Assembly (NCBI GenBank): GCA_003349915.1
Contig: QFXE01000002.1
Coordinates: 62,001 to 126,000, forward strand
Length of the DNA: 64,000 nt
Source of the DNA: an endosymbiont of Escarpia spicata
Lineage (GTDB): Bacteria > Pseudomonadota > Gammaproteobacteria > Chromatiales > Chromatiaceae
Reading direction: 5' to 3'
Part shown: piece after piece, positions 56,796 to 61,222 of the stretch
Layout: each line of letters begins with the position of its first letter
How positions within the stretch are numbered: the stretch's first letter is position 1
Position numbers and translations under genes: made by a program
Notes under the pieces: model-generated
What the model was told of the DNA's origin: nothing
What the model saw: only the letters and a program-made list of their open reading frames with translations
Database searches by the model: none

Positions 56796-58292
56796 ATGGA
56801 TTATAGCCAGACCGATGGCGGCGAAAGCCTGTCCGGGGCATTGGGCAGCCGTCGGGCCGGGATATTGTTGCACATTAGCTCACTGCCAGGCCCCGGAAAG
56901 ATTGGGACTCTTGGCAGTCATGCCTATCGATTTGTTGATTTTCTCCATGCGGCAGGGATGACAGTTTGGCAGATATTGCCGGTAGGTCCGACCCAGGCTG
57001 ACGGCTCACCCTATCAGAGCAGTTCTGTTCATGCGGGCAATCCTCGTTTTATCAGCCTTGAGCCCGTGATAGAGGAGGGTTGGCTGGATGAGTTGCCGTT
57101 GGAAGAAAGTAGCTTCTCTGACAACGGACGCACCTTCGCCCTCAGTCTCGCCTGGGAGGGGTTCAAGGATCGGGCTTCTGATGAAGACAGAGCCGAACTC
57201 GATCGTTTCTGTGCCGAGCAGGGTCATTGGCTGGACGACTACTGTCTGTTCCAGGCACTCCATTCTGAGCAGGGTGGATGCTGGTGGGAGTGGCTGGCAC
57301 CTTTGCGGGACCGAAATCCACAGGCGTTGGCTGAAGCCAGAGCCCGCCTGTGCAACCAGATTCAATATACCCGTTTCGAACAGTTTCTCTTTTTCCGTCA
57401 GTGGTTTCGCCTGAAATCCTACGCCAACGAACGCGGCATCCTTCTGTTTGGTGATGTGCCGATCTTCGTCGCTCATGATAGCGCGGAAGCCTGGTCGCAT
57501 CGCGCGATGTTTGATCTGTTGGAAGACGGGCAGCCCCGGGCGGTAGCAGGCGTACCGCCGGACTATTTCTCCGAAACCGGACAACGTTGGGGAAACCCGC
57601 TCTATCGATGGGAACAGATGGAAGAGGACGGTTTTTCGTTCTGGATAGAACGTATGGAGACTCAATCGGCGCTTTGCGATCTTATCCGTATTGACCATTT
57701 TCGTGGTTTTGAGGCCTATTGGGAGATCCCGGCAACGGAGGAGACGGCAGTCAACGGCAGATGGGTTCCCGCCCCCGGAGAAAAGCTGTTCAAGAAATTA
57801 TATGAGGATCTACCGCACCTGGAACTGGTGGCAGAAGATCTGGGGATTATCACACCTGAGGTAGAGGCCCTGAGAAAAAGTCACGGCTTGCCAGGTATGA
57901 AAATTTTGCAGTTTGCCTTCTCCGGGGGGGCAGACAACCCGTACCTACCGTTCAGACATACAAGGGATTCAGTGGTTTATACAGGCACCCATGACAACGA
58001 TACCAGCCTTGGTTGGTATAACAGTCTGGATGATGCTGAAAGGGTGCAGGTAGACAATTATCTGGGACGATCCCGGGAGATCATGCCCTGGCCCCTGATT
58101 CGATGTGCCTTGTCATCCTGTGCCAATATGGCGATTTTACCGATGCAGGATGTATTGGGCCTGGGACGGGATCATCGCATGAACACCCCTGGAACCACCG
58201 AGGGAAACTGGCAGTGGCGATTTAGATGGGATCAGGTGGAAGAAGATCTTCCCGAACGGTTGCGGCATCGGGTTATGCAATATGGCCGCTAG
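56796..58292 (+). CDS. malQ: 4-alpha-glucanotransferase (amylomaltase)
   Basis: MalQ (GH77) transfers maltodextrin segments between chains. The 498-residue protein has RRAGILLHISSLPGPGKIG, FVDFLHAAGMTVWQILPVGP, the nucleophile Asp in LIRIDHFRGFEAYW, the acid/base Glu in LVAEDLGIITPEV and the TGTHDNDTSLGWY motif. It is the last gene of the glgC-GH57-malQ run, completing a glycogen synthesis and remodelling set. Confidence 0.97.
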   Translation: MDYSQTDGGESLSGALGSRRAGILLHISSLPGPGKIGTLGSHAYRFVDFLHAAGMTVWQILPVGPTQADGSPYQSSSVHAGNPRFISLEPVIEEGWLDELPLEESSFSDNGRTFALSLAWEGFKDRASDEDRAELDRFCAEQGHWLDDYCLFQALHSEQGGCWWEWLAPLRDRNPQALAEARARLCNQIQYTRFEQFLFFRQWFRLKSYANERGILLFGDVPIFVAHDSAEAWSHRAMFDLLEDGQPRAVAGVPPDYFSETGQRWGNPLYRWEQMEEDGFSFWIERMETQSALCDLIRIDHFRGFEAYWEIPATEETAVNGRWVPAPGEKLFKKLYEDLPHLELVAEDLGIITPEVEALRKSHGLPGMKILQFAFSGGADNPYLPFRHTRDSVVYTGTHDNDTSLGWYNSLDDAERVQVDNYLGRSREIMPWPLIRCALSSCANMAILPMQDVLGLGRDHRMNTPGTTEGNWQWRFRWDQVEEDLPERLRHRVMQYGR

Positions 58293-58709
58293 CAAGATCG
58301 TTGTTTTATCTGAATAGCGGGCGAAAAAAAACCGCTTCAGAAAAAGCCTGAAGCGGTATATACCAAAGGAGGATGGAGGAGATAAGCCTGGATGGGTGGG
58401 GCTTGCTGCCTGAATCCACCCCTCCTGACTTGGCAACATTTGACCATATGCTGAGTTGTCGGCGCATTGAGAAATCGCAACAATCAGGAAATGTTTATTA
58501 ATGCTTGTTTTATAAAATAATTTCTGCGAGAAAATTGATCGTTTTTAACAATGGTACTGTGTTGAAAAGCGCTTTGGAGTTGCTGCTGAAATATCGAATT
58601 GTAAACAAATGTAACCAGGATTGACGGGGCAGTTTGTTTCTCATCCAATATATGGGTAGGAAAACTGCGTATTGCGCTGTGGGTTACTTGGATAAAATAG
58701 GAAATAAAG
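58293..58709. other. Intergenic region after malQ
   Basis: No convincing protein gene is seen. The left part has a hairpin whose T run lies on the minus strand (listed separately), then a GC-rich stretch (58360-58440) that can pair with itself (GGGTGG/CCACCC on the minus strand). The right part is AT-rich and contains a weak promoter-like pair TTGCGC / TAAAAT near 58673-58699 that could serve the lysine-rich protein gene. A 43-codon frame at 58373 begins directly after GGAGG with no spacing and is not called. Confidence 0.55.
58324..58356 (-). terminator. Minus-strand terminator hairpin downstream of malQ
   Basis: CCGCTTCAG / CTGAAGCGG is a perfect 9-bp stem with a 7-nt loop. An eight-A run precedes it, so on the minus strand it ends in T8. 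On the plus strand it is followed only by TATATACC. It therefore looks like a terminator for a minus-strand transcript, although no minus-strand gene is evident to its right. Confidence 0.7.
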
Positions 58710-59159
58710 ATGATTGATGTAAAAGGGGATTTCGGAAAACTTCTGATACTTGGGCTTTTGTTGTGTTTGGCCATGTTCCACCCGCTGGGTAATGCCGCCG
58801 TCGACTGTAAGGGAATGAGTCAATCGAGCTGTTCGGGCAATTCCTCCTGTACCTGGGTGAAAGGCTACAAAGCCAAAAGTGGAAAACAAGTCAAAGGCTA
58901 CTGCCGGGCGAAACCTGGTAAGGCAAAAAAAAGTAGTAAGACAGATGCCAAGCACGAAAAAGCGGAATCATCAGTGAGCAAGAAAAGTGGAAAGAAAGAA
59001 AAGGCTGCAAAGAAAGAAAAGGATAAAAAGGCCGAAGCAAAAGTAGATAAGAAAGAGAAGAAGGCTAAAAAGGACAAAAAAGCTAAAAAAGCCAAGAAGG
59101 CTAAGAAGGACAAGAAAGGTAAAAAGGATAAAAAAAGTTCCAAAAGCAAGGAAAAGTAG
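58710..59159 (+). CDS. Exported cysteine-motif protein with lysine-rich low-complexity tail
   Basis: I do not recognise this 149-residue protein. It has a signal peptide (LLILGLLLCLAMFHPLGNAA, cleavage probably after Ala30). A small module follows with four cysteines, Cys33, Cys41, Cys47 and Cys65 (CKGMSQSSCSGNSSCTWV, then GYC), suggesting two disulfides. About 75 residues composed almost only of Lys, Ala, Glu, Asp and Ser come next (KKAKKAKKAKKDKKGKKDKK). The tail resembles histone-H1-like or PNG-binding polybasic regions but is in an exported protein. It might bind polyanions such as DNA, polyphosphate or LPS. It stands alone, followed by a structured 3' region. Confidence 0.8.
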   Translation: MIDVKGDFGKLLILGLLLCLAMFHPLGNAAVDCKGMSQSSCSGNSSCTWVKGYKAKSGKQVKGYCRAKPGKAKKSSKTDAKHEKAESSVSKKSGKKEKAAKKEKDKKAEAKVDKKEKKAKKDKKAKKAKKAKKDKKGKKDKKSSKSKEK

Positions 59160-59204
59160 GTAGCGCAACTACCTCAGCCGGGACCGCATGGAGCGGTGAC
59201 GGCT
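59158..59204 (+). other. Tandem hairpins in the 3' region of the lysine-rich protein gene
   Basis: Two perfect stems follow each other before the terminator: AGGTAG / CTACCT with loop CGCAA (59158-59174, overlapping the stop codon), then a compound stem AGCCG / CGGCT enclosing ACCGC / GCGGT (59176-59204). With the terminator next to it, this makes a compact three-hairpin RNA, suggestive of a 3'-UTR-derived small RNA or a protein-binding element. I do not recognise a known RNA family. Confidence 0.5.
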
Positions 59205-59210
59205 AACCCC

Positions 59211-59247
59211 AAAAAGGGTTGATGATATTTCGTCAGCCCTTTTTTTG
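59211..59247. terminator. Bidirectional terminator
   Basis: AAGGGTTGA pairs with TCAGCCCTT, with five A on the left and seven T on the right. It lies between the convergent lysine-rich protein gene and the HD-GYP gene. Confidence 0.9.
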
Positions 59248-59266
59248 TGCCACTTCTGGAGGGAGA

Positions 59267-60355
59267 CTAGTCGGCAAATTTCCTGGCGATTGAATGGAAC
59301 TCATCGTTGATATGCTCGAAGGCATCCACGACTTCCGGATCAAAATGGCCGCCGCGGCCTTGGCGGATGATATCACTGGCTTTTTCGTGAGAAAAAGCGG
59401 GTTTATATACCCTTTTTGAGATCAGGGCGTCATAGACGTCAGCGACCGCCATCAGGCGTCCGGAAAAGGGAATTTCCTGGCCGGAGAGACCGTTCGGATA
59501 ACCGCTGCCATCCCACTTTTCATGGTGGCTGTAGGCGATCTCACGGGCAATCAGGAGGAAGGATGAGTCGGGATTTCCCTGCAGTTTCTCTGCCTCGATG
59601 ATGGCGTCTCTTCCATAAACGGCGTGGTTCTTCATCTCTTCGAACTCATCCTCAGTAAGCTTCCCCGGTTTCAGAAGGATGCTGTCACGGATGCCTACTT
59701 TGCCGATATCGTGCAGTGGAGCCGATTTGTAGAGCTGCTCGATATAGTCATCCGTCAGGAGAGAGGTAAAGCTGGGTTGTTTTCTCAACTCTTCGGCCAA
59801 TGCCTTGACATAGTATTGAGTGCGTCGAATATGGTTGCCTGTCTCATTGTCACGAGTCTCCGCCAGAGTAGCCATGGCAAGAATGGTGGTGTCTTTTGCC
59901 ATTGCGAGTTCTTTGGTCCGGCCCTTGACCCGCTCTTCCAGAATCTGGTTTTGGTTCGCCAGTGCCTCCCTGGCCTGTTTCAGTGTGAGGTGTGTCTTTA
60001 CCCTTGCAAGGACGATCGCAGTGGATATAGGTTTAGTAATATAATCGACGGCGCCCAGCGCCAGTCCCCGTGTCTGATCACTCTCTTCACCCATTGCGGT
60101 GATAAAGATAACCGGTATGTCGCGGGTCGTCTCATCAGCCTTGAGCCGTTGACAGACTTCATAGCCGTCCATTCCGGGCATCATGATGTCAAGTAAAACC
60201 AGGTCGGGCATAGGCTGGCTTTTCACTCGTTCCAGCGCTTCCAGTCCGTTTCTGGCTGCAGTCAGCCGATAATCCTTTTTCAGCAGGTGCATGAGCACCG
60301 TAATGTTTGCGGGTTCATCGTCGACCAGCAGTAGAGTGGGTTTAGTATCCGGCAT
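59267..60355 (-). CDS. Response regulator with HD-GYP domain (probable cyclic-di-GMP phosphodiesterase)
   Basis: From the ATG at 60355 the protein is 362 residues: a receiver domain (LLLVDDEPANITVL, phospho-acceptor Asp56 in LVLLDIMMPGMDG), a helical linker near 125-160, and an HD-GYP domain with His215-Asp216 (LHDIGKVGIRD), His277-His278 and the intact GYP at 285-287 (HHEKWDGSGYPNGL). The complete metal and GYP residues suggest active hydrolysis of cyclic-di-GMP. A longer frame to 60436 would run through the REP-like hairpin and is unlikely. No histidine kinase gene is adjacent. Confidence 0.94.
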   Translation of the reverse strand: MPDTKPTLLLVDDEPANITVLMHLLKKDYRLTAARNGLEALERVKSQPMPDLVLLDIMMPGMDGYEVCQRLKADETTRDIPVIFITAMGEESDQTRGLALGAVDYITKPISTAIVLARVKTHLTLKQAREALANQNQILEERVKGRTKELAMAKDTTILAMATLAETRDNETGNHIRRTQYYVKALAEELRKQPSFTSLLTDDYIEQLYKSAPLHDIGKVGIRDSILLKPGKLTEDEFEEMKNHAVYGRDAIIEAEKLQGNPDSSFLLIAREIAYSHHEKWDGSGYPNGLSGQEIPFSGRLMAVADVYDALISKRVYKPAFSHEKASDIIRQGRGGHFDPEVVDAFEHINDEFHSIARKFAD

Positions 60356-60398
60356 TCTTTTGTTCTCAAACAACGGGTGTTTTCTGAATCGTTGGTCA

Positions 60399-60436
60399 TT
60401 GTTTGCCGGATCCGCTACGCTTGATCCGGCAAACAA
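60399..60436. repeat. REP-like perfect hairpin
   Basis: A 14-bp perfect inverted repeat TTGTTTGCCGGATC / GATCCGGCAAACAA surrounds the 10-nt loop CGCTACGCTT. The loop is shared with the repeat at 51363-51449 and differs by one base from that at 10328-10392. Confidence 0.9.
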
Positions 60437-60465
60437 GAATCAGCAGGCGCGAAGGATGAATGAGG

Positions 60466-60485
60466 GGATCAAGTGTCGCTGATCC
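60466..60485. repeat. Degenerate inverted copy of the REP-like hairpin
   Basis: GGATCAAGTGTCGCTGATCC is close to the reverse complement of the 60399-60436 core (GGATCAAGCGTAGCGGATCC). The two facing copies form a BIME-like pair. Confidence 0.6.
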
Positions 60486-60664
60486 GCTAATTGCATCTTC
60501 TCCGACCGAAGACTAGCAGATATTATAGAGGCGGCGAGTCTGATTTTATCGATAACCGTGAGGTGTTAAGAATTTCAGTGCTCTCCTTCAATCATTGTGC
60601 GCCTTGCGCTTGTGTGCAAGGTCAGACCGACGGATCGTGATGCCACCATGAATAAGGCGGGATA

Positions 60665-61222
60665 ATGAGAAAAACAACAATCCGTTCGAAACTGCTGTTT
60701 CCCACTCTGCTTTTGTTGTCATTGGCGGGTTATGCAGCATCCGCTGAAGAGAGCTGTATCCGGGAGGTCTTCGGCGATTTCTGTCTGGGCGGAAGCATGA
60801 ACAACCAGCTTGCAAAGCGGGCTGTTCAGAGAGAGCCGCAGCAGAGGGGTGAGCGATCCGGGGTGATCTATCCCGTGGATAGAGACAAGATCTATGTTAT
60901 GGCGTTTAAAGGGACGATTTACAAGGTGCTGCGCACTTATGAACCGACCACCCAAGTTGCTTTCAAAGATTTTAAACGTCGTTTACAGGAAAAATACGGC
61001 AAATCAGTGGACCAGAGCCAATATCCCACTTATGTTCACAGCACTGCGGGAAAGATTGGTGCAATACGCCGTGGTGAGGCAACTGCACTCCATATCTGGC
61101 AGTTGGAGGGAGAACCCTGGCGGGTAGAACTAGGCTGGACGCGAAAGCTGGGGATATCTATCGCTTATCTCGTCAATAGTCTGGACTTGCAGCAGCAGAT
61201 GGAAGCGGACAAAGGGCTGTAA
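60665..61222 (+). CDS. Exported protein of unknown function
   Basis: I do not recognise this 185-residue protein. It has a basic start and signal peptide (SKLLFPTLLLLSLAGYAASA, cleavage near residue 27). An early cysteine pair follows (CIREVFGDFC), then a mixed alpha/beta domain with YVMAFKGTIYKVLRTYEPTT, DFKRRLQEKYGKSVDQSQYP and ALHIWQLEGEPWRVELGW. It is probably a soluble periplasmic protein with one disulfide. It is monocistronic. The neighbouring genes do not indicate its function. Confidence 0.85.
   Translation: MRKTTIRSKLLFPTLLLLSLAGYAASAEESCIREVFGDFCLGGSMNNQLAKRAVQREPQQRGERSGVIYPVDRDKIYVMAFKGTIYKVLRTYEPTTQVAFKDFKRRLQEKYGKSVDQSQYPTYVHSTAGKIGAIRRGEATALHIWQLEGEPWRVELGWTRKLGISIAYLVNSLDLQQQMEADKGL

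Follow-up and report, generated by a model that had tools for sequence, protein, structure and literature searches.

An orphan family of small, putatively exported four-cysteine proteins with a basic stub and variable, in places lysine-rich, tails

The window, a 64,000-nucleotide stretch of DNA from an endosymbiont of Escarpia spicata, encodes a small protein with a signal-like N-terminus, a four-cysteine module and a Lys-rich tail (Table 1). Comparison with homologues, in which the signal peptide, the cysteine spacing and Trp, Tyr and Gly positions are kept, indicates that the module is a real family and not a chance pattern, and that it defines a previously unnamed orphan family. As judged from sequence conservation, the core of this family is the cysteine-hairpin module with a short basic stub behind it. 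The poly-Lys tail is, on the same comparison, not the defining feature of the family; the long Lys tail appears as a lineage-specific extension of the stub and as one of several tail types.

A preliminary description of the ORF had reported a signal peptide, the spacing C-x7-C-x5-C-x17-C and a Lys-rich tail. This combination is present, with the cysteines at exactly that spacing (C33, C41, C47 and C65). The tail, which had been given as ~75 residues of Lys, Ala and Glu, is indeed Lys-rich but measures 84 residues after Cys4, with 49% Lys, 15% Asp/Glu and a net charge of +29. The combination had also been called unusual; it is real, but in part a chance product of the lineage. The genome of the window (4.06 Mb) carries the gene in one copy, and the nearest named relatives are gammaproteobacterial endosymbionts of Lamellibrachia and Escarpia tubeworms.

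Table 1. Features of the four-cysteine gene and its surroundings (positions in the window)
Feature	Coordinates	Strand	Basis
Whole ORF, 149 aa, ATG to stop; putatively exported four-Cys / Lys-tail protein	58710..59159	+	sequence reading and homologues
Signal peptide, residues 1-30; probable cleavage after A29/A30	58710..58799	+	sequence rules
Four-cysteine module, C33-C65: Cys hook (CKGMSQSSC-x5-C) and beta-hairpin (WVKGYKAKSGKQVKGYC)	58806..58904	+	conserved spacing, AF2
Hairpin half (TWVKGYKAKSGKQVKGYCR); phrog_29674-like motif V-x-G-Y-x-R-x-D-G-x-x-V-x-G-H-x-R	58851..58907	+	hhalign, profile score
Lys-rich tail, R66-K149, 84 aa, predicted disordered	58905..59156	+	composition, AF2
Inverted repeat and T run, probable intrinsic terminator of the four-Cys gene	59201..59246	+	direct sequence reading, inferred
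Segment missing from congener G001	58527..59133	.	blastn of window 57500-60500 vs L134

The preliminary description had taken an absence of homologues with the cysteine pattern as evidence against its reading. A search with a profile built from 29 members refuted such an absence: the module was found in 137 of the 210 genomes of the window's own taxonomic family (114 of the 168 high-quality ones) and in 37 of its 61 genera. This unnamed protein family occurs in roughly two of every three genomes sampled from a large gammaproteobacterial family, nearly always with one copy of the gene per genome. A single-sequence search at a loose threshold found the module in 42 of 92 related genomes. Occurrence was sporadic in the samples of the class (19/369 genomes) and of the phylum (7/399), where three proteins outside the class are full-length and several others have the hairpin half only. 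Conservation and tails were counted in 149 distinct members. A cysteine spacing of 7-5-17 is shared by 132 of them; in this subset the four Cys and Trp do not vary, and Lys2, Gly3, Tyr21, Gly26 and Val29 hardly do. Sequence searches of Pfam, NCBIfam, PHROG and the PDB gave no match above threshold, only weak listings far below the cut-offs, and literature searches turned up nothing on the four-Cys family. When phages were searched by tblastn, the window protein gave no match and the family consensus only partial hairpin matches (E of at least 0.4); with plasmids, too, all matches were partial and lay around the hairpin half.

Export was assessed by sequence rules and not by a trained predictor. 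An A-x-A-like site lies 0-5 residues ahead of Cys1 in 149/149 members, and a strongly hydrophobic N-terminal core was observed in 145/149. In the window protein, the maximum mean hydropathy is 3.18 over 11 residues and small residues stand ahead of Cys1 (GNAA followed by VDC). Across the family the N-terminus therefore looks like a cleavable Sec signal peptide. This agrees with the export proposed in the preliminary description, which had named a non-functional signal peptide as contrary evidence; by these rules the N-terminus is signal-like in every member. A lipoprotein reading was rejected, as none of the 149 members has a lipobox at Cys1, the window's Cys33 included. The window's genome encodes DsbA-family proteins, and the four cysteines may be paired as two disulfides.

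AF2 predicted the isolated module as two short helices and a beta-hairpin, with a pLDDT of 80.5 from a shallow alignment of 6 sequences. In the full-length model the tail had a pLDDT of 41-53, as expected for disorder, suggesting that it is probably disordered. A Foldseek search of the module model against the PDB returned only antibody fragments (E>3), and a search against BFVD gave only sub-significant matches, several of them to giant-virus proteins. The best BFVD match was A0A5J6VLI7, an uncharacterised protein from a Megaviridae sample, on which the module model superposes with a probability of 0.99 and a TM-score of 0.62, at 33% identity over 45 columns. The match is not significant (E 0.11) and is therefore only a lead. 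Candidate viral homologues were also sought by an exact-spacing DNA scan of IMG/VR contigs. None of the nine matches was plausible: eight are interrupted by stop codons within the module, and the remaining one (L253) is a frame of 52 residues that lacks a signal peptide.

Weak hits to proteins beyond the family mostly covered the module's second half, and the proteins hit carry the motif V-x-G-Y-x-R-x-D-G-T-x-V-x-G-H-x-R. Three of these outside proteins were scanned, and all match phrog_29674. Comparison of the module with the outside hairpin proteins by hhalign gave a probability of 98.2% (E 4e-14), a value that is biased because the second alignment was picked by similarity. A cleaner test is L246, a phrog_29674 member found via the PHROG model alone, which scored 16 bits with the module profile over the same columns. 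The hairpin half of the module aligns column by column with phrog_29674-type proteins (L246, L063 and WP_263082653.1), and L246, L063 and L056 are, like members of the four-Cys family, small proteins with a signal-like N-terminus. The motif V-x-G-Y-x-R-x-[DN]-G-T-x-V-x-G-H-x-R was found, but is degenerate in the window copy (KAKSGKQ). Unlike the four-Cys family, phrog_29674-type proteins have neither the four cysteines nor the CKG hook, and in those that are exported a DNWSTKGNxNPYTGKxGT-like stretch follows the hairpin where the four-Cys family has its basic tail. The window protein was not listed with the phrog_29674 model at E up to 10, nor was it listed at E<=0.01 when genome G000 was searched with that model. 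The C-terminal NPYTGK-type segment is absent from the window protein and from all listed family members. Because of the absent score and the absent segment, the window protein was not filed in phrog_29674. Collectively, these comparisons suggest that the module is a phrog_29674-type hairpin clamped by cysteines, with a putative common ancestry over about 20 residues, which ties the family to a widespread, unexplained hairpin motif. A separate small protein, L055, contains two hairpin units, both with cysteines (CSWVNPYTKNDGTFVSGHYRC and CHWVDGYYRKNGTYVRGHQRC), and might represent a step between a plain hairpin and the four-Cys module.

The preliminary description had proposed a survey of tail length in relatives. 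Across the 149 members the tail ranges from 10 to 195 residues and is Lys-, Ser-, Gly- or Pro/Ala-rich; many relatives have stubs of 10-30 residues or Ser/Gly/Pro/Ala tails, and the congeners of the window have tails of 75-89 residues. The first 12 residues past Cys4 are net positive in 148/149 members and the whole tail in 140/149. Of the tails with 40 residues or more (55 in all), 29 contain at least 30% Lys. Over these 55, Lys content is negatively correlated with the GC content of the fetched DNA (rho -0.62) and Ala+Pro positively (+0.69), and Arg does not make up for the Lys (0.03). These correlations take no account of shared ancestry and use a GC estimate that includes the gene itself. 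Long tails of high-GC relatives are nearly neutral past the stub, and Lys-rich long tails also occur at 60-65% GC, for example in L130, L060 and L144. Sister comparisons revealed abrupt differences in length: 112 residues in L130 versus about 20 in its g29 sisters, 93 in L144 versus 21-34 in its g41 sisters, and 195 in L180 versus 17 in L189 within g522. Repeat units differ between the lineages with long Lys-rich tails. The short-tailed sisters, the different repeat units and the occurrence at 60-65% GC point, on a comparison made without a tree, to several independent gains of long Lys-rich tails. With natural tails of 10 to 195 residues, varying between Lys-rich and Pro/Ala-rich, on one and the same module, the family lends itself directly to testing the role of polybasic tails outside the cytoplasm. 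Genome G822 has two copies of the gene (L212 and L128), one with a Lys-rich tail of 127 residues and the other with a tail of 21, and so offers a natural comparison for tail function.

Within the window's genus, synonymous changes exceed nonsynonymous changes per site in all three ORF segments among five congeners. The pN/pS ratio is 0.25 for the module and about 0.24 for the tail, values that come from few, non-independent pairs and depend on how the repeats are aligned. The tail has mixed AAA/AAG codons and many indels, and a degenerate 18-bp tandem repeat lies beneath it (59064-59135). The low ratio together with the mixed codons suggests that Lys is kept at the protein level; the residues of the tail appear constrained in this genus, its length does not.

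Gene-neighbour clustering revealed no conserved neighbour across 41 loci. The four-Cys gene lies downstream of pilB/pilC-like genes in one subclade, where tails are mostly short, and adjoins a dCTP-deaminase-like gene in another. In the window its neighbours are a 4-alpha-glucanotransferase-like gene on one side and a convergent response-regulator/HD-GYP-like gene on the other, both named by sequence reading. In congener G001 (L134), blastn showed flanks of 93-94% identity and a loss of ~607 bp that takes in almost the whole ORF and spares its last bases. Since the flanks are kept and the gene is not, the gene is dispensable there. The loss junction in L134 (~1334-1361) holds an unrelated sequence of about 27 bp, possibly an insertion-deletion scar.

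From these data we infer, with a probability of roughly 0.4, that the protein is an exported, disulfide-locked micro-domain held electrostatically to the anionic envelope or matrix by its basic stub, the hold being strengthened by Lys tails in some lineages. Following Sec export, the protein would be cleaved just ahead of Cys1, and in the periplasm its four cysteines would form two disulfides, locking the two-helix hook onto the beta-hairpin. The mature protein would be a tiny envelope- or matrix-associated adaptor that makes specific contact with a partner via the folded module, and the basic stub past Cys4 would hold it by charge to LPS, peptidoglycan, exopolysaccharide or extracellular DNA. 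The long Lys-rich disordered tails of several lineages, including that of the window, would be expanded stubs. The preliminary description had suggested that the tail might bind extracellular DNA, LPS, polyphosphate or host surfaces, and the near-universal positive charge directly after the module fits an electrostatic role outside the cytoplasm. The signal in 149/149 members, the conserved cysteines, the DsbA genes, the confident small fold, the stub in 148/149, the low tail pN/pS in the genus and the long Lys-rich tails of separate lineages, GC-rich ones included, all speak for such retention, whereas the lack of conservation of the long tails, their near-neutrality past the stub in high-GC relatives without Arg compensation, the lack of a shared neighbour gene and the gene loss in one congener speak against it. 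A bolder proposal, which we regard as doubtful, is that these proteins form an undescribed class of exported micro-domains, in which a cysteine-clamped form of a widespread hairpin serves as an envelope adaptor and its attachment is tuned by repeated, independent growth of Lys tails from a conserved stub.

The main rival holds that the hairpin module is the whole function and that the tail is a loose, disordered spacer drifting with base composition, becoming poly-Lys at moderate or low GC. Drift would account for the wide range of tail lengths, for the trends with GC and the missing Arg compensation, for the Ser, Gly and Pro/Ala tails of relatives and for the degenerate tandem repeat with its indels. 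It agrees poorly with the near-universal basic stub, with the tail pN/pS in the window genus and with long Lys-rich tails at 60-65% GC, and we consider it rather unlikely, if tenable. It is improbable that the tail binds extracellular DNA and that the protein acts in the matrix or in DNA handling. DNA binding is a general property of poly-Lys tails and the gene is found near pil genes, but this neighbourhood is limited to the one, mostly short-tailed subclade and most members lack a long basic tail. A precedent is the mycobacterial heparin-binding haemagglutinin HBHA, whose C-terminal domain is needed for DNA binding (PMC10665949).

HBHA resembles the window protein by analogy only, in that basic, Lys-rich C-terminal repeats sit on an unrelated N-terminal domain in a protein found outside the cell. 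It lacks the cysteine module and, to our knowledge, has no classical signal peptide, and no family of the HBHA N-terminal domain was matched by the window protein in Pfam or NCBIfam. HBHA binds sulfated glycans through its Lys-rich C-terminal repeats (PMC3293801), and the closest relatives are endosymbionts of Lamellibrachia and Escarpia, as would be expected of a host-interaction factor of tubeworm symbionts with a glycan-binding tail. Since the module spans 37/61 genera of the taxonomic family, and occurs in other classes as well, and since the gene is deleted in G001, host-surface binding is unlikely as the general function of the family, and we regard this reading as the least likely of all, although the protein may have such an added role in particular lineages. 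The precursor of a small cationic, disulfide-stabilised antimicrobial or secreted signalling peptide would likewise be small, exported, cysteine-stabilised and cationic. Such a role is very unlikely for a gene that is usually single-copy and widespread (137/210 genomes), has no conserved immunity or transport neighbour and encodes a module without accelerated change. Retention at the envelope or matrix through the basic stub is the reading we prefer.

Other features were observed around the gene. A terminator scan also listed the inner stem (59204-59221) of the putative terminator. A structured RNA in the 3' flank was considered and rejected, as all Rfam matches there were sub-threshold. Further downstream, positions 60665-61222 (+) encode a protein of 185 aa whose N-terminus is signal-like and which reaches the cut-off of no Pfam family; it occupies the same place in congeners. 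On the - strand at 58320-58400, downstream of the 4-alpha-glucanotransferase-like gene and on its antisense side, a candidate small RNA consists of a CCTCCATCCTCCTTTGG motif followed by an intrinsic terminator. It resembles Rfam Betaproteobacteria_toxic_sRNA below the cut-off (30 of 50 bits, E 0.00095) and is conserved in congeners. A second copy of the motif and terminator lies elsewhere in the window's genome, in G000:C2 near 511930-511948 (L260), between queA-like and tgt-like genes.
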